From positions 372,001 through 436,000 of the forward strand of contig JANXBN010000001.1 in NCBI GenBank assembly GCA_025060635.1: 64,000 nt of DNA, given 5' to 3'. Every line of letters starts with the position of its first letter. Position 1 is the stretch's first letter. Under the pieces are notes generated by a model. It was not told the DNA's origin and ran no database searches. It saw only the letters and a program-made list of their open reading frames with translations. Position numbers and translations under genes: made by a program. Source of the DNA: Candidatus Kryptonium sp. GTDB taxonomy: Bacteria; Bacteroidota; Ignavibacteria; Kryptoniales; Kryptoniaceae. Positions 17,975 through 33,766 of the stretch are shown in pieces.

Positions 17975-18003
17975 TTGACAAAGTTGATTTTGGGTATTAT
18001 ATT
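17975..18003 (+). promoter_or_regulatory. consensus sigma-70-type promoter of the receptor operon
   Basis: A perfect TTGACA (17975-17980), a 17-nt spacer and TATATT (17998-18003). RNA would start at about 18010, leaving a leader of about 120 nt before the lipoprotein gene. That leader holds a small open frame (18012-18116). Confidence 0.8.
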
Positions 18004-18131: not shown

Positions 18132-18842
18132 ATGCACTACAAATTTTTGGCTTTCCTTTTGATTTTTTCCTTCGTGATCGTTGTTTTCAATTCGTGCGTA
18201 GATACGAGTGTTCAGAATATAACTACCATTGATTATAAGAGCCAAGTTCAATTTGTAAATTTAGCAATAGGTGTTGGAGGAATATCTATCAAAGTTGATG
18301 GAGAATCATTTGGTACGGTAGCTTTTAGTGAGCAGATGCCAAGTTATAGAGAAGTTCCTTCAGGTGCAAAAAAAGTAGTGGTTGATTATGAAAACCCGAG
18401 AATTCCAAACGATACCTTTTCAATCGTATTTGATACTGAAAGAAAAATGAGAGTGTTTATTATTGGTGACACAACGACAAGAACATTTGTAAAAGCTGAT
18501 GAGAGGTATATATGGCAAACAAAGGATAGTAAAGAAGGCTCTCATCTTTTCCCAGCCGATACTTTCCAAGTTAGGGTTTTCCATGGGGTAAGAGGCGGTA
18601 GAAGTGTGGACAGTGTAAGGGTCAGAGTTGGTACAAGAGATACGACGATCGCATTTCCTCTCGCCTATAGTAGGGTAAGTTCATATATTAAATTTAGAGT
18701 TGTAGGTGTGCCTTATACATTTATTGCGCGTTCAGGAAGAGATAGTTTAACATCAGTTGTTATAAATCCTGAAGCTAAAAGGAGATATACTGTGATTCTG
18801 TATGATTCGCCAATGAAAAGCAAAGCATTAATTGACGATTAA
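18132..18842 (+). CDS. DUF4397-type envelope protein, likely lipoprotein
   Basis: The 236-residue product has an N-terminal hydrophobic segment ending in Cys22 (FNSC), a weak lipobox. The body looks like two DUF4397-like beta-sandwich units ('VQFVNLAIGVGGISIKVDG', 'FQVRVFHGVRGG'), the second about residues 140-230. DUF4397 proteins are surface or periplasmic and of unknown function. It has a strong GGAGG at 18119-18123 and lies 31 nt before a TonB-dependent receptor. A SusD-like accessory role is inference from position only. Confidence 0.75.
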   Translation: MHYKFLAFLLIFSFVIVVFNSCVDTSVQNITTIDYKSQVQFVNLAIGVGGISIKVDGESFGTVAFSEQMPSYREVPSGAKKVVVDYENPRIPNDTFSIVFDTERKMRVFIIGDTTTRTFVKADERYIWQTKDSKEGSHLFPADTFQVRVFHGVRGGRSVDSVRVRVGTRDTTIAFPLAYSRVSSYIKFRVVGVPYTFIARSGRDSLTSVVINPEAKRRYTVILYDSPMKSKALIDD

Positions 18843-18873
18843 AAAATTAAAAATTTAAGGAGGTATAAAAATT

Positions 18874-21843
18874 ATGTTGCGTAAAATTTTTCTCATTTTT
18901 ATACTAGCAATCCTCTGTTACTCAATTGGTTTTGCTCAATATGGTAAAATTGCTGGTAGAGTTGTTGACAGGGAGACAAAGGAACCGTTGATTGGTGCAA
19001 ATGTTATAATTGTTGGAACAACTCTTGGTGCTGCAACTGATATGGAAGGGCGTTATGTGATTTTAAATGTCCCACCTGGTGTTTACGATGTTCGTGCTTC
19101 GTATGTCGGTTATCAAGATGAAACGAAACGGGGTATCAGAGTTATAGCTGGATTAACAGCGGAGGTTAATTTTGAGTTACCATCAACAGCTATAGTTGCT
19201 GAACCAGTTGTAGTTATTGCTGAAAGACCGTTGATTGAAAAAAGCGCAACGAACGCAATAAGAGTAATTAAATCTGAAGATTTTGAAAAGTTGCCTGTTA
19301 GAGGTCTTGGAGCTTACATAGCACTCCAGCCTGGTGTTGTGTTTCAGGATGGTAGATTCCATATTAGAGGTGGTAGAGCAGATGAAACTGGATTTATACT
19401 TGAAGGTGCAAATGTCAGGAATGTTGTGAGCAGAGATGGTGGGCAGTTAGTTTCGGTGATTCCTGATGCACTTGAGGAAGTTTTGATTCAAGCTGGTGGT
19501 TATAATGCAGAGTTTGGAGGGGCAAATGCAGGTTTGGTTCAGCAAAACTTTAAAACTGGAACTGAGAAGTTTAAGGGATCAGTCAGAATAGAGACCGACA
19601 ATTTTGGCAATTATCCGGGTAAGAAGTTCCTTGGAACCTATTCATATGGGTATTCAGATTATGTACTAAGTGTTAGTGGTCCTGTGTTTACAAATAGAAT
19701 TCGCGCTTTCTTGGTTGGTGAAAACTTCTTTATAAGGGACTACAGACCGGCATTTTGGTATGGTTCGCCAGAGAGATGGTCTGATGGAGCTCCAGTTGAT
19801 ACTGTTTATGATACAGGACGTCGGTTGGGTGATCCTAGGGAATTTCAGATATTAAAGTGGACCCCAGGTAATATAATAGGGCGATTCCAAAATCGTTATA
19901 CCTTCAATGGGACATTATTGTTTGATTTGAAACCACTCTATATTAGAACTGCTGGGTCATTTACATGGCAGAGAACAAGATTAAGAGGACAACATCTCAT
20001 TGGTTTGTTTAATTTAGAGAGATTGCCTTTATTTGATGAGAATAACTTATTCTTGAATGTAAAGGCAACATATTTCTTTACAGCAAAGAGCTTCATAGAA
20101 GTTAATTTAAATTACCTTGAGAGAAGATTCAAGCAATATGATAGGCACTTTAAAGACAACCTTTTTGCATATATGGATAGTGCAAGGGCAGCAGAGTATG
20201 GTTGGAGATTTAGAAGATATACAATTGCACCAGCACAATATGATTTCTATGGTTTCCCATTTGACAGGCCTGGGACGCCAGCTACTGGATATGCCAAGGG
20301 GAAACAAGGTTATTATGGTGGATCTGTTGCTTTGACATCACAGGTTGGAAGGCATGAATTTAAATTGGGTGGATCATTTGAAAGATGGACAGTAAGGAAC
20401 TATAGTATATCGCTTGGTAGAATTGCAGCGGTTTATTCGTTTATTAGGTCTAGCCCAGAATATGCAAGAAATGTTGATTCGCTTATTAAAGTCATACGAA
20501 GAAACTTCGTGAATAACTTTGGTTATGATGAATTGGGAAGAGAAATTAACTCGGGTGTTAACCGACCTAAACATCCATTCTTTGCCTCTGCTTATATCCA
20601 AGATAAGATAGAGTTTGATGATATAATCATAAATGCTGGAATAAGATTTGATCACATTGATATGGATTCATGGAAGTATGTTGATCCAACCCGTCCAGTA
20701 AGAGATGAAAATAACTATGTAATCCCTGATACAAGTATCACGAAAGGTAGGAAATTTACCTATGCTTTACCACGACTTGGCTTCTCATTCCCAGTAACAG
20801 ATAGAACTGTGTTTCATCTCCAGTATGGTAAATTTGTTCAGGCACCAGGGCTTGATGTAGCTTATAGGGGCATGGGTATAGCAGTTCAACAACTTATAGG
20901 TGGATTTTATTTCTCAGATCCGATAGCATTTGATTTGGAACCAACTAGAACAACTCAATATGAAATTGGTTTCACACAGCAATTCACGGATTATGCAGCG
21001 TTTGATATAACTGCTTTCTACAAAGATATCCGTGGTCAGGTACAATATGGATTCGTTAGAACCGCTGCTGGTTGGGATCCATCTTCGTATCCTGTTTATG
21101 TAAATCAGGACTTTGCTACGACAAAAGGAATAGAGTTTAGATTGACGCTTAGAAGAGTTGCTCGTGTTCAAGCTCAAGTGAACTACACATTATCAGATTC
21201 AAGAGGAACCAATGCTTTCCCGAATAGCGCTGGTGGCGCTTTGAATGTCACAGGTGTTGCACCTACGATTATAATTCCGCTTACATATGATCAGAGACAC
21301 AGAGGTTCAGTTATTTTAGATTACAGATTTGGTAAAGGTGATGGTGGTCCTATACTTGAAAGGTTAGGTATCAATGTTCTATTTACATTTAACAGTGGAC
21401 ACAGATTCACCAGAGCTAAAGTTCCAGGATTGGGTCAGCAAGATGCTTGGACTGGTGGAATTTTGAATGACAGTGATTCAAGGCAGAGAGTTCCAGTTGA
21501 GCCTATTAATACTTCAACAACTCCATGGAATTTCAATGTGGATTTGAGAATTGATAAGACTGTAACAATTTTCAATGTTGATTTCAACTTCTATGCTTAT
21601 GTTCAGAACCTGTTTAATACAAGAAATGTGATAAATGTCTATTATGCAACCGGAAATGCTTATGATGATGGATTTTTAACAACTGAGGATGGACAAAGAG
21701 TTGTTAATACGATAGGTCAAAGGTTTGCTGATCTGTATCGTGTGATTAACTTGCAGAATAGACAGCATAACATAATACTTAACGGTTTTGATTTATTTGG
21801 TTCACCACGCCAGATTCGTGTTGGTGTTCTTGTTGAGTTCTAA
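18874..21843 (+). CDS. TonB-dependent outer-membrane receptor with carboxypeptidase-like domain
   Basis: The 989-residue product has a signal peptide (1-21), a carboxypeptidase-regulatory-like domain (about 25-105, 'GRVVDRETKEPLIGANV'), a plug (about 125-235, 'FHIRGGRADETGFILEGANV') and a long 22-strand-type barrel ending in Phe (VLVEF). Such receptors import substrates, or in this phylum assist surface protein assembly, using TonB energy. GGAGG at 18859-18863 lies 10 nt before the ATG. Its neighbours are a DUF4397 protein and a giant T9SS cargo, with no metal or vitamin genes, so the substrate is unknown. Confidence 0.93.
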   Translation: MLRKIFLIFILAILCYSIGFAQYGKIAGRVVDRETKEPLIGANVIIVGTTLGAATDMEGRYVILNVPPGVYDVRASYVGYQDETKRGIRVIAGLTAEVNFELPSTAIVAEPVVVIAERPLIEKSATNAIRVIKSEDFEKLPVRGLGAYIALQPGVVFQDGRFHIRGGRADETGFILEGANVRNVVSRDGGQLVSVIPDALEEVLIQAGGYNAEFGGANAGLVQQNFKTGTEKFKGSVRIETDNFGNYPGKKFLGTYSYGYSDYVLSVSGPVFTNRIRAFLVGENFFIRDYRPAFWYGSPERWSDGAPVDTVYDTGRRLGDPREFQILKWTPGNIIGRFQNRYTFNGTLLFDLKPLYIRTAGSFTWQRTRLRGQHLIGLFNLERLPLFDENNLFLNVKATYFFTAKSFIEVNLNYLERRFKQYDRHFKDNLFAYMDSARAAEYGWRFRRYTIAPAQYDFYGFPFDRPGTPATGYAKGKQGYYGGSVALTSQVGRHEFKLGGSFERWTVRNYSISLGRIAAVYSFIRSSPEYARNVDSLIKVIRRNFVNNFGYDELGREINSGVNRPKHPFFASAYIQDKIEFDDIIINAGIRFDHIDMDSWKYVDPTRPVRDENNYVIPDTSITKGRKFTYALPRLGFSFPVTDRTVFHLQYGKFVQAPGLDVAYRGMGIAVQQLIGGFYFSDPIAFDLEPTRTTQYEIGFTQQFTDYAAFDITAFYKDIRGQVQYGFVRTAAGWDPSSYPVYVNQDFATTKGIEFRLTLRRVARVQAQVNYTLSDSRGTNAFPNSAGGALNVTGVAPTIIIPLTYDQRHRGSVILDYRFGKGDGGPILERLGINVLFTFNSGHRFTRAKVPGLGQQDAWTGGILNDSDSRQRVPVEPINTSTTPWNFNVDLRIDKTVTIFNVDFNFYAYVQNLFNTRNVINVYYATGNAYDDGFLTTEDGQRVVNTIGQRFADLYRVINLQNRQHNIILNGFDLFGSPRQIRVGVLVEF

Positions 21844-21849
21844 AAATTT

Positions 21850-21871
21850 CAGGGGGCTTTCTCGCCCCCTG
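21850..21871 (+). terminator. intercistronic hairpin without U tract
   Basis: CAGGGGGC (21850-21857) pairs perfectly with GCCCCCTG (21864-21871) around a 6-nt loop, directly after the receptor stop. No T run follows, so it is more likely a partial terminator or an RNA-stability element than a full stop. Confidence 0.55.
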
Positions 21872-21913
21872 TCGTTATGAATTTATAAACAAAATTTAAG
21901 GAGGAATGAAACT

Positions 21914-24900
21914 ATGAAATTATTTGGATTACTTGTAGCGTTAATTCTAATCTTAAATCCTATGTTTGCAAGAGATACGGATGGAAAGCGTGATATCAAA
22001 GATTTCATGAAAGTAGGACAGTTAAATCCTGCACAGACGGTTGTTAACATTAACAACATCACGACATGGGTAAGAGGTGATGGGTTCCATGATTGGGTTG
22101 TAGAAGGTTCATTTAACGGTACGTTTCCAAAGGGAACCGCTGGATTTATATTTTCTGAAGCAGTGGTCGTTGGTGGAAAAGTTGATGATGGACAAACACC
22201 TGTGGTAAGAGTAAATGGTTCTGTTTATTCTTCAGGTTTTAGAAGTGGAATTATAAGGCCAGATAGAACGAGAGGACCTGAATTGCGTCCATATAGAGTT
22301 AGACCTGATTGGGCAACAGCTGATTTGACGGAAGACGCTGCCGATTTCTTCCAAAAGCCAGCATCTCAAGTAACACAAGCAGAAATTGATCAGATAAGAG
22401 AACAATATAGAATTGATTGGCAGGAATGGCCTGCAAGTTTGGGAGCGCCATTTGATGACAGAAATAGAAACGGCATTTATGAGCCAAACATTGATATTCC
22501 AGGTGTTCCTGGAGCAAGTATGACCTTGTGGATTGTTTATAATGATCTTGATGCTGGTAGAACCTCATCAACTTATGGTTCACCACCAATTGGTCTTGAG
22601 ATTCAAGAAACATATTGGGCATATGCATTTGCAAATCCACTTGGAAATGTTATTTTCAAGAGAGCAAGAATAATTTATAAAGGAACTCCTACGACAAAAG
22701 CTGGAGCGGTAATTGACTCAATGTATATCGTTCAGTGGTCAGATCCAGACCTTGGTCAGTATACGGATGACTTTGTAGGTTGTGATACCGTGCTAAACTT
22801 AGGTTATGTATATAACTCAAGTTCAGTGGATGCTATTTACTTTAACAGATATGGACTTGCTCCACCAGCGGGTGGATATGACTTCTTGCAAGGTGCTGTT
22901 ATCAGAACCGGAAATCCGAATGACTCAGCAATAGTTGATTTCAAGTGGCGCAGAGGATATAAGTATATATCTCCAAAGCCGATGTCAGTTTTCACATTCT
23001 TTGCCGCAGGAAGCCCGAGAAGTGACCCGACAAGAGGTGGTGCATATACCGGAACATTACAATGGTATAACCTCATGGCTGGATTTGAACCAAGACCTGA
23101 ATATCCAGCAAGAATACCAATAAGAGATCATCTTGGTAATGTGACTAAATATGAACTTGCTGGAGATCCAGTAACTGGGACAGGCGATATAGATGGACGT
23201 CCAACACCTCAAAATCCGAACAGATTCCCACCAGGAGATCGTAGGATGGTGATGTCAACGGGTCCATTTACGATGGCTCTTGGTGATACCCAAGAAATTG
23301 TTATCGCTTTGGTTGGTGGGCTTGGAGCTGATTATAAGTCAAGTATAACTATTTTGAAGTATAACGATATTTTTGCACAATATGCTTATGATAACTTGTT
23401 TGAGTTGCCATCTCCACCACCAGCTCCAAAGGTTACCGCTGTTCCGCTTGATGGGCGCATTATCTTGAACTGGGGTGATGATATTGAAGCTATAAGAAAC
23501 ACTGAAGAAGTCGTAAGAAAGGGCTTCAGATTTGAGGGTTACAATGTTTATCAATTCCCATCCGAAACTGCAAGATTAGAGGATGCTGTAAAGATAGCAA
23601 CTTATGATGTGGTTAACGATATTACTGTTATCGTAGATAGAGCTATAGACGAAAAAACAGGAGTTATAGTAACAAAACCAGTCCAAGCCGGGCGAAATAC
23701 CGGTATAAAGAGATATATTGTAATTGATAGAGATTATGTTAGGAATACGAGGTTAGCAAATGGAACAACATATTACTTTGCAGTTACTGCTTATTCATAT
23801 ACTGATGATCCGAATGCACCATTTAGAGCTTTGGAATCCAAGCCAGTAATCATAGCAGTTACTCCACAATCACCAAAACCTGGTGTTACCTTAGGTGCGT
23901 TTGCTGGAGATACTTTGAAAGTGACATATCGTTCAAGAATTCCGGGGCGAGTGAGCGATGGAAAAGTTTATCCGATCGTTGTAGACCCGATGGCTTTAAC
24001 AGGTAATACTTATAGGGTTACATTTGATACTGTTGGTGGTAAAGTTGTATGGAATTTGATTGATGTAACTGCGAATAGAGTTAAATTAAGTCGTCAGACA
24101 AATCAAAGCGGTGATGATTCATATTACATTGTTGATGGAATAATGGTCAAAGTTCTTGACGCGCCACCGAGGATGAAAACTGACGATGAAGGTGGTTGGA
24201 GAGTCGTAAGTGGAACGCGAAAGATCACTTGGGAACGAGGTGATGGTTTACATTTTGAAAACTTCGGTGGAGCTATAGGTTATGCTAATCCTGGAACAAT
24301 ATTTGGAACATATCGTAATCCAATTACTCCTGATCGTTTAAAAAACATTAGAATTGTTTTTGCTCCAACTGATGTAAATGGAAACTTTGATCCAAATCAT
24401 CCAAATGCTTCTTTCGCATATAGATATTTGAGAAGAGCAACTGCTGCGATACCACCTGCTGCTAATGTTCCACCACCATTTGTAGTAGATGGCACAAAGT
24501 TTATTAATAGAACTGCAGGTTATCCATATCAGGATTTCGTAAAGGTACCCTTAACTGTGTATGATATTGAATCTACTCCGCCTAGGAAGCTTGCGATTGG
24601 CTTTTTAGAGAATAATGCAAATCCAGCTCCAGATGGAAAAGTTTATGGACTTGTAGATGGTAGATATTGGCCTGCTCCACATGATGTTCTTGCAAGCGTA
24701 GGGCGAGATAATGTTGAAATATATGGACCTCGTGAATGGTTATTCATATTTGATACTACATATACTGAAACTCCAGTTGCTGCTCTTATGCGGGATATTT
24801 TGAACGTACCGCTACCGACTATGTATACAGCAACTTGGAATCGCAGAGGAAATGTTGCATTTTCAGCGGACGATGTAATTGAATTCTACACTAATCATAT

Positions 24901-25291
24901 AAACTTTGTGACTGATGAATTTACATTTACTGCACCTAAACCACAAGAAAGCGTTGAGCAAGCAAAGCTTGATGTTGAAAAGATAAATGCATTCCCGAAC
25001 CCATACTATGGATTTAATAGTCGTGAGAGAGTCAGAGAAGAAAAGTTCATAACATTTAGCCACTTGCCGAGGAAAGCAACAATAAGAATATTTACGCTCT
25101 CAGGTGTGCTTGTGAGGACGATAGTCAAAGATGATGATACCCAGTTTGCAAGATGGAACCTCAGGAACGATAACAATCTCCCTGTTGCAAGTGGTGTCTA
25201 TGTCGTGCATATTGATATGCCAGATCTTGGAAAATCTAAAGTATTGAAGGTTGCTATAATACAAGAGCAACAAATCTTGAGAGTATACTAA
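21914..25291 (+). CDS. large secreted T9SS-type cargo protein
   Basis: This 1125-residue exported protein has a signal peptide (1-19). A beta-rich body includes a Pro-rich linker near residue 495 ('FELPSPPPAPKV') and two fibronectin-III-like units, one of them around 500-650 ('RIILNWGDDIEAI', 'GTTYYFAVTAYSY'). The C-terminal sorting-type domain covers about 1020-1115: 'INAFPNPYYG', then 'ATIRIFTLSGVLVRTI' and 'LPVASGVYVVHI'. The 'FPNPYYG' signature is a variant of NPFNP. AAGGAGG (21898-21904) is a strong ribosome-binding site. I recognise no enzymatic domain. It lies between a TonB-dependent receptor and a PorV-like protein, which points to surface display. Confidence 0.85.
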   Translation: MKLFGLLVALILILNPMFARDTDGKRDIKDFMKVGQLNPAQTVVNINNITTWVRGDGFHDWVVEGSFNGTFPKGTAGFIFSEAVVVGGKVDDGQTPVVRVNGSVYSSGFRSGIIRPDRTRGPELRPYRVRPDWATADLTEDAADFFQKPASQVTQAEIDQIREQYRIDWQEWPASLGAPFDDRNRNGIYEPNIDIPGVPGASMTLWIVYNDLDAGRTSSTYGSPPIGLEIQETYWAYAFANPLGNVIFKRARIIYKGTPTTKAGAVIDSMYIVQWSDPDLGQYTDDFVGCDTVLNLGYVYNSSSVDAIYFNRYGLAPPAGGYDFLQGAVIRTGNPNDSAIVDFKWRRGYKYISPKPMSVFTFFAAGSPRSDPTRGGAYTGTLQWYNLMAGFEPRPEYPARIPIRDHLGNVTKYELAGDPVTGTGDIDGRPTPQNPNRFPPGDRRMVMSTGPFTMALGDTQEIVIALVGGLGADYKSSITILKYNDIFAQYAYDNLFELPSPPPAPKVTAVPLDGRIILNWGDDIEAIRNTEEVVRKGFRFEGYNVYQFPSETARLEDAVKIATYDVVNDITVIVDRAIDEKTGVIVTKPVQAGRNTGIKRYIVIDRDYVRNTRLANGTTYYFAVTAYSYTDDPNAPFRALESKPVIIAVTPQSPKPGVTLGAFAGDTLKVTYRSRIPGRVSDGKVYPIVVDPMALTGNTYRVTFDTVGGKVVWNLIDVTANRVKLSRQTNQSGDDSYYIVDGIMVKVLDAPPRMKTDDEGGWRVVSGTRKITWERGDGLHFENFGGAIGYANPGTIFGTYRNPITPDRLKNIRIVFAPTDVNGNFDPNHPNASFAYRYLRRATAAIPPAANVPPPFVVDGTKFINRTAGYPYQDFVKVPLTVYDIESTPPRKLAIGFLENNANPAPDGKVYGLVDGRYWPAPHDVLASVGRDNVEIYGPREWLFIFDTTYTETPVAALMRDILNVPLPTMYTATWNRRGNVAFSADDVIEFYTNHINFVTDEFTFTAPKPQESVEQAKLDVEKINAFPNPYYGFNSRERVREEKFITFSHLPRKATIRIFTLSGVLVRTIVKDDDTQFARWNLRNDNNLPVASGVYVVHIDMPDLGKSKVLKVAIIQEQQILRVY

Positions 25292-25302
25292 AAATTAATT
25301 AT

Positions 25303-25325
25303 CCCCCCAGCTTTTTGCTGGGGGG
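25303..25325 (+). terminator. intercistronic hairpin without U tract
   Basis: CCCCCCAGC (25303-25311) pairs perfectly with GCTGGGGGG (25317-25325) around a TTTTT loop. No T run follows on the plus strand, and the next gene begins 40 nt later with its own strong ribosome-binding site. It probably tunes or stabilises the message rather than ending it. Confidence 0.55.
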
Positions 25326-25364
25326 AGTAAAATTAAAAATAAAAATTATTTGGAGGTCAAAGAC

Positions 25365-26423
25365 ATGAGAACTGTGAAAAGAGTTTTTTACGGATTATTT
25401 CTAATAATGTTAGTTTTTGGGTTAGCTTATAGTGGAAATCAGAATAAAGCAGGGACAACGGCAGCGCCTCATCTGCTCATTCCTATCGGTGCGAAATATC
25501 TTGGGTATGGAGGTTCTGCGGTAGCAATCGCTTCAGGGCTTGAATCTATATATTGGAACCCTGCTGGTGTTGATCTTGTGAAAAATTCTGCCAACGCTAT
25601 ATTTTCATACAGAAGCTGGCTTGCTGATATGAGTGTTAGCTATTTTGCGGTGAGTGGTAAGTTCGGTTTTGGTAGCGTCGGACTTGCATTAAAAGTTCTT
25701 GATGTTGGCGATATACCAGTTACCACAGAATTGGATCCAGATGGAACTGGCGCTGTCTTTAGCCCGACATATTTTGTTGGGACATTGACATATTCAAAAA
25801 GGTTAACGGATAGAATTTCCGTCGGAGCTAACCTCAACATTGCTCACGAAAGCTGGGCTCAAGTTAGTGCTACTGGATTTGCTTTTGACGCGGGAGTACA
25901 ATATCATGGATTGTTCAAAATACCAGGATTATCTTTGGGAGTTGTAATTAAAAATATCGGATTCCCGGTAAGATACGACGGATCAGCATTGTGGGTTGAA
26001 GCAGAAGTCCCTGGAACTGAGCGCGGTGTTACTTGGTATAAAGTTCAAGCTGCTGAATTTGAGATGCCATCTGTAATAGAGCTTGGAGTTGCTTATCAGT
26101 TCAATGTTGGTGAAAATAATAACTTCCGAGTTGTAGGTGCATTTCAAAACAATAACTTTGCATATGATGAATATAGAGTAGGTCTTGAGTATTCCTTCAG
26201 AGATGTTTTATCTTTAAGAGCAGGTTACTTGTTATCACCTGAATCTGGAAAGTGGATTCCATCGCCTGATGTAGCTACACCGAATATATTCCAGAATTTC
26301 TCTTTTGGTGCTGGTGTTAACTTAGGAAATGTTGCTGGGCTTGCGTTAGAAGCTGATTATGCTTTTGTTCCTGTGAAATTCTTCGGCAATAATCATGTGA
26401 TTTCAGTAAGCATTGGATTTTAA
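25365..26423 (+). CDS. PorV/PorQ-like outer-membrane protein
   Basis: The 352-residue product has a signal peptide and then the family's opening 'GAKYLGYGGSAVAIASGLES' and 'YWNPAGVD'. A FadL-like barrel of about 14 strands ends in Phe (ISVSIGF). PorV carries T9SS cargo from the translocon to the attachment complex, so its place right after a T9SS cargo gene makes sense. ATG 25365 is preceded by GGAGG (25352-25356). The upstream in-frame TTG at 25350 overlaps that site and is rejected as a start. Whether this is the main PorV or a dedicated paralogue cannot be told here. Confidence 0.88.
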   Translation: MRTVKRVFYGLFLIMLVFGLAYSGNQNKAGTTAAPHLLIPIGAKYLGYGGSAVAIASGLESIYWNPAGVDLVKNSANAIFSYRSWLADMSVSYFAVSGKFGFGSVGLALKVLDVGDIPVTTELDPDGTGAVFSPTYFVGTLTYSKRLTDRISVGANLNIAHESWAQVSATGFAFDAGVQYHGLFKIPGLSLGVVIKNIGFPVRYDGSALWVEAEVPGTERGVTWYKVQAAEFEMPSVIELGVAYQFNVGENNNFRVVGAFQNNNFAYDEYRVGLEYSFRDVLSLRAGYLLSPESGKWIPSPDVATPNIFQNFSFGAGVNLGNVAGLALEADYAFVPVKFFGNNHVISVSIGF

Positions 26424-26446: not shown

Positions 26447-26480
26447 AAAAGCGGCGGAGAAATTCCCGCCGCTTTTTTCT
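26447..26480 (+). terminator. intrinsic terminator after the PorV-like gene
   Basis: GCGGCGG (26451-26457) pairs with CCGCCGC (26466-26472), extended by flanking A and T, and is followed by six Ts. It is a canonical terminator and closes the 18132-26423 operon. Confidence 0.9.
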
Positions 26481-26608: not shown

Positions 26609-26768
26609 TACTAAGACTATATCCCACACTCTTTAAAACGATCTAAATTAAGCACCTTTAATTCCGAAAAACATTAAACTTCTTTTTTGCCCTATTGAGA
26701 TGAGAGCACATAGTATAAATGTTCCTATTTCAACATCCAAAAATAAAATAAAATGGAGGTTAAAGGTT

Positions 26769-28436
26769 ATGAGAAAAATTTATCTTTTTCTCACGCTTAT
26801 GATTGTCTTATATTTTGTTTCGTTTTCTCAAGCGCAGTATCCGCTTTTTTACTTGAAAGATGGTTTTCGTGTTTCTTATGTAGCTAACTATTCAACTATT
26901 CCAAAGATTGATGGTTGTGATGATGTAATTGCTGGTCTTGATTTGAATAAGAATGGAAAATTAGAAATCCTTGCTATTAATGATCCAACTGTTTCAAGCC
27001 CAGCATCAGGAGATACGACGAAATGGGTTTTTTTATTTGAGAACGATGGAAATGATAATTACAAACTTCTGTGGAGCACCGCCCTACCTTTAACTTCAAG
27101 AACGACAGGATACAGCTTTCCTGGTGTAAATGTCACTGATGTTGATGGAGATGGAAATTTTGAAATAACAATAGTTAATCCATCTAATGCTGATGTATCT
27201 GCTGGAATTTTAAATCCTGATAAAATATTTTTCTACGAATATGACCCACGAACGAGGACATTTCCGACGGAACCAACATTCGCTTGGAATCTTGATTATC
27301 CAGCCGATGGAAATGCTGGATTTAGGTTAACATATCTTTTCCCTGGAGATTTTGATCGTGATGGAAGACAAGAAATAGCTTTAATTGATAGAACCTCACG
27401 AATTCATATGTGGATAATCTCACTTGAGACACCTGAACTTGATCCATTTTCAACTTTTAAGGTTGAGTTCCGAGATAGCTCTCTTACCGCAACCTGGGCA
27501 TTTGACATTACCACAACTGATTTTGACAGAGATGGTAAACAAGAAATCTGGTTTGGAACATGGACTAACTTTACTTGGGTTATAGTTGAAGCCGAAGGGC
27601 CAGATAATTATGTGATAAAGAAGGTAATCTCTAATTCGCACATTGGCTCTGGAACAGTTGTTGGAACTCTGAGAAATCTTAAGTTTATGGATATGGACGG
27701 AGATCGTTATCCTGAAGGTTTTGCGTTTGCTACTAATGGACAGCTTGTTTATATTGAAAACAGAAAACCAGCGGATGTAAGTGAGATTGACTCAACATAT
27801 TTTCACAAGGTAGGTGGTTGGGATTATACTCGTGGGGCTGATTGGGGTGATCTTGATGGAGATGGAAATCTTGATGTCGTGGTTGCTGGCAATTATAGAA
27901 ATGTTTACCATGTTGAATATAAAGGTTCAGGTGCATTCAAGGATTCAACGAGCTGGGAATGGAGCGAACTTCTCAGAGACACGCTTGGGACACCGAGGTA
28001 TTATTATGTAAGTTTCCCACCGCGCGATATGGATGGAGATGGTAGAAGAGAGTTTGTAATTGGTTCTTTGCAAAGACCTGATTCAACACGAGCATTTTTC
28101 ATTGTTTTTGAGCGTGATGTTATAGTAAAAGCTCAATCTCAGGATGAGATTTTAACAGGTTATTATTTAGCTCAAAATTATCCAAATCCGTTTAATCCAG
28201 TAACATGGATTGAATTTGCTTTGCCGAAAGATGAGTTCGTGACTTTAAAGATATACACAATTGACGGACGGTTGGTTAGAACTTTAGTTGAAAATAAATA
28301 TTATCCAGCAGGAAAGCATTTGTTAAGTTGGGATGGAAGGGATGATAATAATCTTGAAGTCGCAAGTGGAGTTTACATTTATAAAATTAGTGCTGGAAAA
28401 TTTGAAACCTCAAGGAAGATGATACTTTTGAGGTAA
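26769..28436 (+). CDS. secreted FG-GAP/VCBS-type T9SS cargo protein
   Basis: The 555-residue product has a signal peptide (about 1-22). A beta-propeller-like body carries many calcium-binding loops of the FG-GAP type: 'DVDGDGNFE', 'DFDRDGRQE', 'DFDRDGKQE', 'DLDGDGNLD' and 'DMDGDGRRE'. The T9SS type A sorting domain starts with 'NYPNPFNPVTWIEF' and continues 'LKIYTIDGRLVRTLVE' to the end. It should be displayed on or released from the surface, probably binding calcium. ATG 26769 was chosen for the GGAGG at 26755-26759 and because the signal peptide starts there. A paralogue follows. Confidence 0.9.
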   Translation: MRKIYLFLTLMIVLYFVSFSQAQYPLFYLKDGFRVSYVANYSTIPKIDGCDDVIAGLDLNKNGKLEILAINDPTVSSPASGDTTKWVFLFENDGNDNYKLLWSTALPLTSRTTGYSFPGVNVTDVDGDGNFEITIVNPSNADVSAGILNPDKIFFYEYDPRTRTFPTEPTFAWNLDYPADGNAGFRLTYLFPGDFDRDGRQEIALIDRTSRIHMWIISLETPELDPFSTFKVEFRDSSLTATWAFDITTTDFDRDGKQEIWFGTWTNFTWVIVEAEGPDNYVIKKVISNSHIGSGTVVGTLRNLKFMDMDGDRYPEGFAFATNGQLVYIENRKPADVSEIDSTYFHKVGGWDYTRGADWGDLDGDGNLDVVVAGNYRNVYHVEYKGSGAFKDSTSWEWSELLRDTLGTPRYYYVSFPPRDMDGDGRREFVIGSLQRPDSTRAFFIVFERDVIVKAQSQDEILTGYYLAQNYPNPFNPVTWIEFALPKDEFVTLKIYTIDGRLVRTLVENKYYPAGKHLLSWDGRDDNNLEVASGVYIYKISAGKFETSRKMILLR

Positions 28437-28541: not shown

Positions 28542-28584
28542 TTAATGTGTGAAAATTCAAACAAAACAAAGGAATATATTTAAA

Positions 28585-30468
28585 ATGAAAAGAGCAACTG
28601 CTTTAATCGTTTTATTATTACTTTCTTTTTCTGTTGAGTTTCTCTTAACACAGACGAGATTTAATTTAAAAGCTACATATTCTCCTCCTGTTGGTGATAC
28701 GACAAAGTGGTATGCTGCGGGAGGTCCTATGCATGTTCGCTCAGTAAAGGCTGGATTTGATACTGATAGAGATGGGAAAATTGAGGTAGTAGCAACAGAT
28801 TATTATTATTCAAGGGTTCACTTATTTGAGCATGTTGGCAGAGATACTCTTGAACTTGTGTGGTCATCTCCAGCAATAGGGCCAGCGAGAGTTGGTCGCA
28901 ATTCAACCCCAAGAGATGTGGTTATTACTGATTTGGATGGCGATGGGCTTTTAGAAATTACTTTTGCAGTTGGTAATGTTGATGCTACTGATAGACCCGT
29001 AAGAGGTATATATGTATATGAGTGGAGAGGAACCGTTGGTGTTAATAGTTATGGTGATCCGGCGAAGACAGAATTTTTCGGCGCGTCTCTTTATTATGCT
29101 CCGCCAGATTCATTCGTTAGGTTCACAGTGCAATCGCTCGGAGTTGACGATGTTGATGGAGATAATAAACAAGAGTTGATAGTTGTAAAAGATGATGCAA
29201 ACAACACAAGAGAAGATGTATATATAATTTACTCGCTTGAAGGTACGGCAGTAGAAGATCCATTTTCCACACTGAAAACGGAGTTTTTCATTAGCCCAAG
29301 AGCTGGATATGGAAGCGGTAGCCCATGGGCATTTGCTATCGCTGATCTTGATGGGGACAGGAAAAAGGAGATTGTGTTTAATCCATATAACTTTCAAAAT
29401 GTTTTCATAGTGAAAGCAGTTGGACCAGATAGGTATGTTATAGCGGACACAACTTCACCGAAAAGGTTCTATCATGCTTCACCTGGTGCAGATGGGGTAA
29501 GCCTTCTTGGCGCTGCTGTTATTGATATTGATAGAGATGGTAATGACGAAGTTTTTCTTGTTAGATTTCCTGGAGATCAACTACATATAGTCAATTACAA
29601 TCCTGGAGATAATGTTCTTGAAGTTGATTCAACGAAGGTTGTAAAGTTATTCCAACATGTATCTGCTGGGAGAACGGTGTTCTCTGTCTTCGCAGGCAAT
29701 CAAGATGGGGACAACAGACCGAACTTATATATTGCTGGAATATCTGGATACGATGTAATTGAGGTTACATATAATGGTGGTAATATATTGGATTCAAGTA
29801 GTTATTCAATTAGAGTTTTGTATTCCGGAGATTCTCTTGATGTCATAACTCCGACGGCGAATATCAGAGATACATTATTTGTGATTGATTCACTTGGATT
29901 TAGATATAGGCGTGCCTTCAGGAATGAAGATTTCTTCGTTGCTCGTTTAGCAGTTGGAGCAAATGTTGACCTTGATAGAAATATGAAGCGTGAAATTGTC
30001 CTCGGCTATCAAAGCATTCCTGATAGCGTAACTATGAAACATATTCGCTACGATGCAACTTCTGGTAGATTTTTAACTGATACAACCTACAGGGCTCCAA
30101 ATACATTTAATAGAAGGATAATAAGAGTTCTTGAATCTGATGTGCCAACTGGCATCAGGGTTAGAGATGTGGTTGTTGTAACTCCAGATGATTACGAACT
30201 TTATCAGAATTATCCAAATCCATTTAATCCATACACAAATATATCGTTTTATTTGCCCATTGATAAAAAGATAAGCTTGATAATATATGATGTCACAGGT
30301 CGCGAGGTAATTAGGTTAATTGACGAGCAGGAGTTTCCGAAAGGGAAACATAATGTTGTTTGGGATGGAAAGGACCAAAATGGTAAACCAGTTGCAAGTG
30401 GAACTTATTTCTACAAACTTAAATTTGGAAACTTTGAAAAGACAAGGAAAATGATGCTTGTTAAATAG
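28585..30468 (+). CDS. secreted FG-GAP-type T9SS cargo protein, paralogue
   Basis: The 627-residue product has a signal peptide, repeated Asp-rich loops ('DTDRDGKIE', 'DLDGDGLLE', 'DVDGDNKQE', 'DLDGDRKKE', 'DIDRDGNDE') in a propeller-like body, and a C-terminal T9SS sorting domain ('NYPNPFNPYTNISF', 'LIIYDVTGREVIRLID', 'KPVASGTYFYKLKFG'). Domain order matches the gene upstream, so the pair probably arose by duplication, yet each has its own promoter and terminator. It should sit on the cell surface. The ligand is unknown. Confidence 0.9.
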   Translation: MKRATALIVLLLLSFSVEFLLTQTRFNLKATYSPPVGDTTKWYAAGGPMHVRSVKAGFDTDRDGKIEVVATDYYYSRVHLFEHVGRDTLELVWSSPAIGPARVGRNSTPRDVVITDLDGDGLLEITFAVGNVDATDRPVRGIYVYEWRGTVGVNSYGDPAKTEFFGASLYYAPPDSFVRFTVQSLGVDDVDGDNKQELIVVKDDANNTREDVYIIYSLEGTAVEDPFSTLKTEFFISPRAGYGSGSPWAFAIADLDGDRKKEIVFNPYNFQNVFIVKAVGPDRYVIADTTSPKRFYHASPGADGVSLLGAAVIDIDRDGNDEVFLVRFPGDQLHIVNYNPGDNVLEVDSTKVVKLFQHVSAGRTVFSVFAGNQDGDNRPNLYIAGISGYDVIEVTYNGGNILDSSSYSIRVLYSGDSLDVITPTANIRDTLFVIDSLGFRYRRAFRNEDFFVARLAVGANVDLDRNMKREIVLGYQSIPDSVTMKHIRYDATSGRFLTDTTYRAPNTFNRRIIRVLESDVPTGIRVRDVVVVTPDDYELYQNYPNPFNPYTNISFYLPIDKKISLIIYDVTGREVIRLIDEQEFPKGKHNVVWDGKDQNGKPVASGTYFYKLKFGNFEKTRKMMLVK

Positions 30469-30529: not shown

Positions 30530-33500
30530 TTATCTGTAAATTTTTAATGTTACGATGGAATGAGGCTTAACTTTTAAAGTAATTTTTTCTTTTGAAAATT
30601 TTAGTTCGGATTTGTCTTCCTCAATGAAATTTGAAATGAAAACCTTTGAAGGGACAAATGGAAGAACAATTTCTCCTTCTGTGTCCTTCCCTTGAGATTC
30701 ATAGAACTGAAGCGTCCAAGCGTTTGCATCCTCAGATTTTTTTAAAACTGTCAAAATCAAATTTTCAGGCGCTAACTTAACAAATGAATAGTTTAAAACA
30801 GGCAAACTGCCGGAATGTTTGTCTGTGAGAATCGGAATTAGTGGATTATTGAAGTCATATGCAATGTTTGTTGTTTTTGCTTCTTTCCATGTCCCTTTGT
30901 GTGGATATAGAGCATATTCAATTGTATGAAAACCTCTATCGGCGGTTGGATCTGGCCAGTTAGGTGAACGTAAAAGTGAGAGTCGCATAACTGAACCTTT
31001 ACAGTCATAGCCATATTTTGAACCGTTGATCAAACTAACACCGTAATTTTTTTCTGATATATCAGCCCATCTCAAGGCAGGAACCTCAACTTTTGCACTA
31101 TCCCAAGAGTTTCTCATTTGTGTTGACCTTTGAATGTATCCATATGGGATTTCATATGTGGCGACTGTATCTTTCACCGAAAGCGGAAAAGCAACTTTAA
31201 ACATTATATTTTTCTCCCACCAATCAACATCTACTCTAAAATCAATTCGTTCAATCTTATCATAGAGAATTACATATTGTGTAAAGAAGCTTGTGGGGAA
31301 TGTTTCAGTTGGTGGATATGATCTTGTATCGGGTTTTCGGAAATCTCTATTAATTTTTAAAACAGAACGAACAGGTCCAGATTCAACAACCTCACAACCT
31401 CTAAAAGCTGAATGAAATTCAATGCCTGTCAATCCCACATTCCAAGCATCCCAAGCCGACGGTTTATCCTCAAGAAGTTGAAGTTTATTGCCAGGAGCAG
31501 TCAAAATTTGTTTGTCATATCTTTTATCAAAAATCCCACTTATCCAGCCGTTCGTTGTGTCAATTTCAACTTTGAAAAACCTGTTTTCAATCGTTGATTT
31601 TGTAATTTTAAGTTCGGTTTCAAATTTTGTAGGCTTTTGCTTTTTGAGTATATAGGTTTTGTAACCTATCGGTGGCACATTTTCAGCGATGAAGATAATT
31701 TTTCGTCTGCCTTCTTCAATTATGTTTTGAGATGCGATCTCTTTGCCAGACATATCAAAGATTGTGTATTCATTTTCATCAAAAGGTTTCATCTCAAGTT
31801 TAACGATATCAGTTCTCTCCCACGAGCTTGGGTTGAAGATTATTATCGGTTCTCCATCTTTGATTTCATTTGTGTTTATATTTTGAGCAACTTTTTCAAG
31901 CGAGCTTCTAATCTGGAAGTTAGTAAAGTTTTCAACCTCTTCGTAATCTTTTTTCGCATCAAAATAAACTTCCCTTATGCTTGAACCTGGAAGTATATCA
32001 TGGAATTGGTTGAAGATAAACTTAAGCCAGTATTTTTCAAATAATTGGTTGTCATAGTTGAAATCAAAAAGCGTCGCAATGGCTGAAAATTTCTCAGCGT
32101 TTGAAAGAGCAGTTTCAAGTTTTCGGTTGTATTTTTTTACATCTGAATGTGTTGTGTATGTTCCTTGATGATATTCAAGATAAAGCTCATCTCTCCATAC
32201 AGGTAAGTTTTTGAGGTCTTTTATTTGCAGTGTTTTAAAGTAATCAGAGACAGTGGAAAATTTTATCTCAGGGAAAATGTAAAGTTTTTTAAGTTCTTCA
32301 ATTCTCTTTAACATCTCCTCCGTTGGACCACCTCCGTGGTCTCCAACGCCGAAAAGAATCAACAGTTCTCTAAATCCAGTGTTTGCTTCAAATTGCCTAA
32401 GCCAGTCAATAAGACGAAACGGATTTTCAATTGTGTTGACATAGCTAAATGGAAAATATGTTAGGACTCTTGAACCATCTGGGCTTTCCCACCAGAATAA
32501 TCTATATGGGAAGACATTTCTCTCGTTCCAGTTAAGTTTCTGTGTTACGAATGCGGTTATATCAGCTTTTGCAAAGAAAGTTGGAAGCGTCCAAGTATAG
32601 CCAAAAGAATCGGGAATCCAACCAATCTCTGGTTTTACGCCAAGAACTTTTTGAAAATATCGTTGTGAATATAATAAATTGTGCATCCAGGATTCGCCCC
32701 CAGGAAGGTTGCAATCTGGCTCAATCCAGGTTCCACCGACAACTTCCCACTTACCAAGCTTTATTTGATTTTTTATTTCAGAAAAAAGATCAGGGTAAAG
32801 AGTTCGCATCCATTCATAATAAACAGCGGAACTTTGGGTATAAGTCAGGTGAGGATATTTCCGCATAAGATTTATAACAGAGTTGAAGGTATTTTTGCAA
32901 ACTTCAATTGTTTCTTTCACTCTCCAAAGCCATGCAGCATCAATGTGAGCGTTTGAGACGAAAATAAGCGTGAACCTTTTTGAAAACTCGCGGATAGGTG
33001 TGAGTTTCTTTTTTATTTTTTCAACCGAAAAAGCAAATTTCTCAAAATCTCCTTTTGAAAGCGAAGATAGATCAATTTCGGCAGAACTACTTTGTAATAA
33101 GTTATTTAGTTTAATTCTTTCCTCCCTTTTAATAGTTGATTTGTCAATTTTGGGATCGTGTCTTGTCATATCGTTTGTTTGATATGTGTCAAAGCTTAGG
33201 AGTTTTTGGGCAACTTTCAAACTTAAAGATAAATTTTTAATTTCGTTTACAATCTCTTTAACGCTTTCAATTTCAAATTCAGCTCTTAAAAGTCGTAGTG
33301 GTCCGCCCGTGTTAACTGCTTTAATTGCGAATGTGATCTCTTGCCCGGGTTTAATTTCACTTGTTAAGTCAAATTCACCATCCCATGGTATATATCCAAC
33401 ATATTTCTCATTAACCCAGAGATAGCCATAATCATCAACTGAAACCTTGAAAACTATTTTTCCACTTATTGCTTTACCGAGAAATTTTTCGGGGATCTTG

Positions 33501-33766
33501 AACTTTGACCTTATCCAACATGAATCAATATAAACCCTCTGCCCAAGTTTTAAGGTGTCCCATTTTGAGTCATCGTATTCTACCTTCGTTGGTTCATTTG
33601 TTTTCAAAGTAGAAAGACATTTTATGTCTGGACTTACCTTCCAAGTACGTATTGAGATCGTGCTCAAGGAATCAAGAATTGAAGTTACGCTGTCAACCTT
33701 TGATTTCGTTTGAGAAATTATTGAGGTGGAAAGGATGATGAAAAGGATGGTTAATTTTTTGAGCAT
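30530..33766 (-). CDS. glycoside hydrolase family 38 alpha-mannosidase
   Basis: The 1078-residue exported enzyme has a signal peptide (1-18). Its GH38 catalytic domain (about 265-560) has zinc ligands H274 and D276 in 'NAHIDAAWLW' and nucleophile D386 in 'GWIPDSFGY'. Later motifs are 'GVGDHGGGPTEEML' and 'FNQFHDILPGSSIREVY', followed by the middle three-helix and C-terminal beta-sandwich domains. The first 150 residues form a beta-rich domain ('VSVDDYGYLWVNEKYVGYI') like those of related mannosidases. It should remove alpha-mannose residues from glycans outside the cytoplasm. It stands alone, so the glycan source is unclear. Confidence 0.94.
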   Translation of the reverse strand: MLKKLTILFIILSTSIISQTKSKVDSVTSILDSLSTISIRTWKVSPDIKCLSTLKTNEPTKVEYDDSKWDTLKLGQRVYIDSCWIRSKFKIPEKFLGKAISGKIVFKVSVDDYGYLWVNEKYVGYIPWDGEFDLTSEIKPGQEITFAIKAVNTGGPLRLLRAEFEIESVKEIVNEIKNLSLSLKVAQKLLSFDTYQTNDMTRHDPKIDKSTIKREERIKLNNLLQSSSAEIDLSSLSKGDFEKFAFSVEKIKKKLTPIREFSKRFTLIFVSNAHIDAAWLWRVKETIEVCKNTFNSVINLMRKYPHLTYTQSSAVYYEWMRTLYPDLFSEIKNQIKLGKWEVVGGTWIEPDCNLPGGESWMHNLLYSQRYFQKVLGVKPEIGWIPDSFGYTWTLPTFFAKADITAFVTQKLNWNERNVFPYRLFWWESPDGSRVLTYFPFSYVNTIENPFRLIDWLRQFEANTGFRELLILFGVGDHGGGPTEEMLKRIEELKKLYIFPEIKFSTVSDYFKTLQIKDLKNLPVWRDELYLEYHQGTYTTHSDVKKYNRKLETALSNAEKFSAIATLFDFNYDNQLFEKYWLKFIFNQFHDILPGSSIREVYFDAKKDYEEVENFTNFQIRSSLEKVAQNINTNEIKDGEPIIIFNPSSWERTDIVKLEMKPFDENEYTIFDMSGKEIASQNIIEEGRRKIIFIAENVPPIGYKTYILKKQKPTKFETELKITKSTIENRFFKVEIDTTNGWISGIFDKRYDKQILTAPGNKLQLLEDKPSAWDAWNVGLTGIEFHSAFRGCEVVESGPVRSVLKINRDFRKPDTRSYPPTETFPTSFFTQYVILYDKIERIDFRVDVDWWEKNIMFKVAFPLSVKDTVATYEIPYGYIQRSTQMRNSWDSAKVEVPALRWADISEKNYGVSLINGSKYGYDCKGSVMRLSLLRSPNWPDPTADRGFHTIEYALYPHKGTWKEAKTTNIAYDFNNPLIPILTDKHSGSLPVLNYSFVKLAPENLILTVLKKSEDANAWTLQFYESQGKDTEGEIVLPFVPSKVFISNFIEEDKSELKFSKEKITLKVKPHSIVTLKIYR

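Follow-up and report, generated by a model that had tools for sequence, protein, structure and literature searches.

The window analyzed here (i.e., the whole 64,000-nucleotide stretch of a Candidatus Kryptonium genome) contains four co-directional open reading frames that encode a predicted lipoprotein, a TonB-dependent receptor, a large protein predicted to be exported by the T9SS (referred to here as the cargo), and a PorV/PorQ-family barrel (Table 1). A GGAGG-type Shine-Dalgarno sequence lies upstream of all four, in agreement with the gene order and the GGAGG sites given in a preliminary description of this DNA. We corrected the start of the barrel gene from TTG 25350, the mechanical start of the open reading frame, to the ATG listed in Table 1, which has its GGAGG at 25352. 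The preliminary description also bounded the unit by a promoter and a terminator. The terminator was confirmed, but the candidate promoter (17975-18003), which matches 11 of 12 consensus positions, lies in a region with 41 promoter-like matches versus 36 expected; consensus matches are not above background, and we therefore rejected it as an argument for a single transcript. Two hairpins internal to the unit, absent from that description, are included in Table 1.

Table 1. Features of the window locus and positions of the sister triads (receptor, cargo and barrel genes) in the same genome
Feature	Position	Strand	Remarks
Lipoprotein gene	18132..18842	+	236 aa; marginal DUF4397; directly 5' of receptor in the window's subfamily
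TonB-dependent receptor gene	18874..21843	+	989 aa; CarbopepD_reg_2 and Plug; below the curated SusC/RagA cut-off
GC-rich hairpin, receptor-cargo gap	21850..21871	+	not kept in relatives
Cargo gene, predicted T9SS-exported	21914..25291	+	1125 aa; probable tandem beta-sandwich; C-terminal sorting domain at about residues 1016-1125
Intercistronic RNA hairpin, cargo-barrel gap	25302..25326	+	structure conserved; no U tract
PorV/PorQ-family outer-membrane barrel gene	25365..26423	+	352 aa after start correction; NF033709
Intrinsic terminator	26447..26480	+	dG -19.5, z -3.7
Triad L068	C1:474-482 kb
Triad L069	C3:27-35 kb
Triad L070	C4:104-110 kb
Triad L071	C7:34-41 kb
Triad L074	C10:15-22 kb

The receptor matched CarbopepD_reg_2 (69.7 bits) and Plug (29 bits, cut-off 23.9) above the Pfam cut-offs and, together with its barrel length and signal-like N-terminus, this bears out its assignment as a TonB-dependent receptor. 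Its score against the SusC/RagA model TIGR04056 was 70.5 bits, below the cut-off of 368, with the best-matching stretch confined to the N-terminal 120 residues. No SusD-family lipoprotein is encoded beside the window receptor, as had been noted before; the only two SusD_RagB matches of the genome are both on contig C8, and the window is on C1. The first gene had been named a DUF4397 protein, and while the gene stands, the family name is marginal (PF14344, 30.1 bits, just under the gathering cut-off of 30.6, and 18.4 bits in the genome search). Its product is a predicted lipoprotein (lipobox ..FNSC followed by VDT), and a lipobox-like cysteine is found in 18 of 19 homologues. Such homologues occur in 18 loci, each time directly before a receptor, and their location at position -2 relative to the cargo is the mark of the window's subfamily. 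The lipoprotein is probably an accessory.

The barrel scored 164.8 bits against the PorV/PorQ-family model NF033709 (cut-off 90) and 71.6 bits against the PorV equivalog NF033710 (cut-off 250, not reached). The earlier label of PorV-like thus holds for the family and not for the equivalog. A relative in the PDB is PorV (6h3i_F, E 1.6e-6). Core T9SS parts of the genome include SprA, PorU, PorV, and PorZ; the PorU-linked PorV is encoded elsewhere (C2:228535), and 11 PorV-family genes score above the cut-off.

The cargo had no family matches in Pfam. We obtained two AlphaFold models, built from 12 sequences, and both were weak (pLDDT 58.5 for the full length and 54.7 for residues 40-502). The C-terminal half was modeled as a beta-rich domain chain, probably of beta-sandwich type, and the low-confidence N-terminal half gave no reliable fold match. 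PorZ was the top structural match of the full-length model at a TM score below 0.15, which would be consistent only with a shared C-terminal domain. We considered a SusD homologue hidden in the cargo and rejected it, as none was found by sequence in Pfam or PDB profile searches or in the low-confidence models. A weak resemblance of the N-terminal region to GH65/GH94 supersandwich domains was likewise set aside (E 0.02, pLDDT 54.7) and serves only as a sugar-binding lead.

Conservation and inheritance of the cassette

We used the cargo as a query against 60 relatives and 247 genomes of the phylum, examined the regions around the matches, and derived adjacency statistics from the extracted regions and the search coordinates. 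Within the class, 51 cargo homologues scored above 200 bits, a set chosen by the cargo alone. A receptor gene lies directly upstream of 44 of these and a PorV-family gene directly downstream of 43, with both partners present in 42. Outside the class, the complete receptor-cargo-barrel order was found in 12 of 18 regions, several of the others stopping at a contig edge. Since the adjacency is conserved in dozens of genomes, a chance neighbourhood is untenable: receptor, cargo, and barrel form a conserved, recurrent cassette. The co-occurrence that the preliminary description proposed to look for is therefore clear, and in most relatives receptor, cargo, and barrel genes are adjacent rather than scattered; in the window's subfamily even the lipoprotein holds a fixed place. 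Conserved gene order can also be caused by regulation or by shared assembly. We found no earlier account of such a unit in the open literature, subscription papers and preprints being outside the scope of the search, and the cassette is apparently undescribed. It is negatively associated with SusD-rich genomes (five or more SusD genes in 3 of 69 genomes versus 65 of 178), an association that is confounded by phylogeny and that we rejected as proof of replacement.

The window locus is not a special case, as its own genome contains six triads among 16 plug-bearing receptors and only two SusD genes. At a seventh receptor (L073), a PorV-family gene follows directly. Receptor and barrel trees of the five own paralogues outside the window have an identical topology, ((L071,(L068,L069)),(L070,L074)). 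The correlation of receptor and barrel distances is 0.95 among the six own paralogues, the best of 720 possible pairings, and 0.92 over 44 triads, part of which merely reflects the shared ancestry of loci. Receptor and barrel trees thus match even for deep paralogues, which indicates that copies of the cassette arise and move as whole units.

We compared the window quartet (18132-26423) with L081-L086, L099, and L100. In both receptor and cargo trees, the window copy groups with L059 and with Ignavibacterium and Melioribacteraceae loci, apart from its genus mates (supports of approximately 0.98-1.0), and the corresponding SerA site of two genus mates is occupied by a different triad (L099 and L100). 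The window quartet is likely an in-place replacement by horizontal transfer. Two further arrangements were observed in these genomes. In L193 (G004:C8:9000-28900), the triad's receptor gene is directly preceded by another cargo gene of the L068 type (1167 aa), so that only the cargo appears to have been duplicated. At L078 (C3:87 kb), L077 (C8:97-99 kb), and L079 (C1:443 kb), cargoes with weak tails, including a 1607-residue protein, are directly followed by a PorV-family gene with no TonB receptor directly before them; these may be versions of the cargo-barrel pair that lack a receptor.

A distinct class of C-terminal sorting domains

The third gene, identified earlier as a T9SS cargo, encodes a weak or atypical type A tail: the C-terminus of its product scored 19.5 bits against TIGR04183 as a single protein and 23.4 bits in the whole-genome search, on either side of the cut-off of 23. 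Ordinary T9SS tails in this genome carry a YPNPFNP motif and end in KKMxLxK, whereas triad tails have V or F (R in L074) ahead of PNP[YF], approximately 10 inserted residues, and a different hydrophobic end (e.g., GKFAIIK). Tails of the window subfamily are approximately eight residues longer still and have Y or F as the last residue. In held-out tests, the ordinary model gave scores of 96-136 for ordinary tails and 13-22 for the six own triad tails; a model of the relatives' triad tails gave 7-42 and 48-176, respectively, and the classes did not overlap. Cargo tails are therefore a subclass of C-terminal sorting domains (CTDs) distinct from the ordinary T9SS type A. Two FG-GAP repeat proteins encoded past the terminator (26700-28436 and 28549-30468) have ordinary type A tails and no barrel of their own, and they provide a contrast to the cargo tail within the window.

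We found that tail class and barrel adjacency coincide across the genome. Among its 45 TIGR04183 matches, seven of the nine scoring 30 bits or less directly precede a PorV-family gene, compared to none of the 36 with higher scores (Fisher 8e-7). The weak-tail group includes PorU, PorZ, and PorV-adjacent cargoes; the triad cargoes of L068, L069, and L071 score under even the reporting limit. Among families, the window tail matches PorZ best (NF052228, 40 bits); this match covers the CTD only and falls short of the whole-protein cut-off of 260; the genome's real PorZ (C3:54432-56591) scores 349 bits. Because the PorU and PorZ tails in turn score just 32-43 bits with the triad models, their resemblance to the triad class is only partial, and it is therefore by inference that we describe the cargo as docked like PorZ.

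In Porphyromonas gingivalis, PorV anchors PorU and PorQ anchors PorZ (PMC5562754). Both PorU and PorZ retain their tails (PMC10202324), the PorZ tail being uncleaved (PMC8545088), and a review has raised the idea that cognate PorV-like barrels may shield tails from cleavage (PMC10202324). In cryo-EM structures, a lysine near the C-terminal end contacts PorV through a hydrogen bond (PMC10994853). A near-terminal lysine aligns in nearly all triad tails (46 of 47) and ordinary tails (28 of 29), as well as in PorU and PorZ, and by our own alignment it is probably the same residue.

Functional readings of the cassette

Several sister triads of the genome are found in catabolic settings. Downstream of L068 come a BadF/BadG-family (GlcNAc-kinase-like) gene, a gene for a GH3 protein whose C-terminal domain belongs to the beta-lactamase family, and a sodium:solute symporter (SSF) gene, and this series is repeated in G002 and G004, two genomes of the same genus. 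A LacI-type regulator is encoded before L069 and a CBM20 T9SS protein after it; the complete order recurs in G001, G003, and G006, and also in G020, which belongs to another family, and in G036 it is retained from the receptor onward. A GH38 gene is located near L074, an M14 peptidase gene near L071, and FAA hydrolase and aminotransferase genes near L070. Sister triads occupy α-glucan and GlcNAc/GH3 loci that are conserved in relatives. Such settings are typical of SusCD pairs, and they are the main reason for reading the cassette as an uptake unit. Of the two functions proposed earlier, an undescribed uptake system is thus the better one and has gained partial support.

We give an even chance to the reading that the cassette is a SusD-independent TonB uptake unit whose T9SS-exported surface partner has its own PorV-family barrel to hold or deliver it. 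We infer not only the uptake and its substrate but also docking, cognate recognition, and contact between receptor and cargo at the surface. The cargo would cross the outer membrane via the genome's T9SS, and the barrel encoded next to it, rather than the general PorV, would take over its special CTD. It would then remain at the surface beside the receptor, most likely with the CTD uncleaved and docked in the manner of PorZ on PorQ, where it may capture a ligand and pass it to the TonB-powered receptor, a role played in SusCD by the SusD lipoprotein lid. Docking is tentatively favoured over shuttling. We hold somewhat more tentatively that cassettes across the phylum are SusD-independent TonB uptake machines of this kind, each with its T9SS-exported partner on its own PorV-family barrel via an uncleaved specialised CTD, and each copy tuned to a different nutrient.

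For the window copy, we found no catabolic neighbour that is conserved in relatives. In relatives, the genes that flank window-type copies are of the housekeeping kind and vary between lineages: SerA, GWxTD, lipid A acyltransferase, heptosyltransferase, and a gene whose dihydrolipoamide-dehydrogenase-like name is based on sequence only. Within the class, homologous triads often precede the GWxTD, acyltransferase, and heptosyltransferase genes or come after SerA, which could indicate that the window subfamily serves outer-membrane or LPS assembly as a housekeeping module, or acts as a sensor of the receptor type, with no part in nutrient uptake. We consider this quite unlikely, since it is the neighbours that differ by lineage and the triad that is constant, no ECF sigma/FecR pair was recognised beside the triad, and sister copies are in catabolic loci.

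PorV is a homologue of FadL (PMC12578637), and the window barrel has a weak FadL/Toluene_X match (E 0.0027). Accordingly, the barrel might be a FadL-like channel, with receptor, cargo, and barrel serving as steps in the uptake of one lipid-like nutrient and T9SS docking being incidental. The family score of the barrel, however, points to PorV/PorQ and not to FadL, the sister triads lie beside sugar and peptide catabolism, and the weak-tail class coincides genome-wide with PorV-family adjacency, all of which make such a hydrophobic route very improbable.

The two internal hairpins differ in their conservation. The one in the receptor-cargo gap recurs as a stem of at least 8 bp in just 4 of 12 testable homologous gaps. 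The cargo-barrel hairpin (dG -23.2, z -3.6) has a counterpart of at least 8 bp in most quartets: such stems are present in 15 of 18 cargo-barrel gaps (window, L060, L061, L063, L065-L067, L081-L084, L086, L087, L093, and L097) versus 18 of 72 control gaps of the same contigs (Fisher 8.5e-6), gaps and controls that are not fully independent as several come from close relatives. Their sequences are largely unrelated across lineages, and a U-rich tail is found in none of the 15. The hairpin likely acts through mRNA stabilisation or processing that leaves more cargo than barrel. Unequal amounts suggest a recycled shuttle rather than a 1:1 anchor, and to this extent the hairpin counts somewhat against strict 1:1 anchoring and is the best argument for a shuttle. 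A strong conserved hairpin without a U tract is what one would expect where more mRNA is needed for the cargo than for the barrel, and PorV of P. gingivalis is itself a recycled shuttle (PMC5562754). These points keep alive the other earlier proposal, a dedicated export and display unit in which one very abundant surface protein has the barrel as an additional shuttle and, once cleaved, is anchored or released in the way of a type A substrate, with a receptor that is co-regulated and not a physical partner. Yet linkage of the receptor is as tight as that of the barrel, with which it co-evolves, the genome has 36 ordinary type A cargoes that do without their own barrel, and triad tails are a separate class; we therefore regard display as rather unlikely and favour the uptake reading.

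The cassette resembles SusCD/RagAB in that a TonB-dependent receptor with an N-terminal carboxypeptidase-like domain is encoded next to a probable extracellular partner, in multiple copies, some of them beside sugar catabolism genes and LacI-type regulators. It differs in its partner, a large protein with a T9SS CTD that is neither SusD nor a lipoprotein, in its fixed third gene for a PorV/PorQ-family barrel, and in a receptor that falls under the SusC/RagA cut-off. With PorZ-PorQ and PorU-PorV it shares a T9SS-exported surface protein that has a weak or atypical type A CTD and a matched PorV-family barrel (PMC5562754, PMC10202324), the closest family match of the window tail being PorZ itself, but outside its tail the cargo has no relation to PorZ or PorU, the unit also includes a TonB receptor, and many copies exist per genome. 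In Flavobacterium johnsoniae, type B cargo genes are likewise followed directly by their own PorV-like barrel, a PorP/SprF shuttle (PMC12618676), whereas the cassette has a type A-like tail and a PorV/PorQ-family barrel. BtuB-BtuG also pairs a TonB transporter with a non-SusD surface accessory (PMC10404256); BtuG, however, is a lipoprotein, and that system has neither a T9SS cargo nor a PorV-family barrel.

If the uptake reading is true, nutrient capture in much of the phylum outside SusD-rich lineages would rest on the T9SS and not on surface lipoproteins, and searches for sugar-uptake loci by SusC/SusD pairs would overlook such cassettes. The published account in which a single PorV serves all type A substrates (PMC12618676) would then also need qualification. 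The cassette would furthermore offer a large natural sample for the question posed in PMC10202324, namely whether a cognate PorV-like barrel protects the CTD from cleavage.

GH38 alpha-mannosidase genes occur near two triads of this genome (window 30533-33766, on the minus strand, and L074:4174-6858). We rejected the window GH38 as catabolic partner of the quartet, because it is encoded on the other strand and the neighbour clusters do not show it again next to quartets. Its product has an N-terminal extension with a weak GH2-like sugar-binding match.
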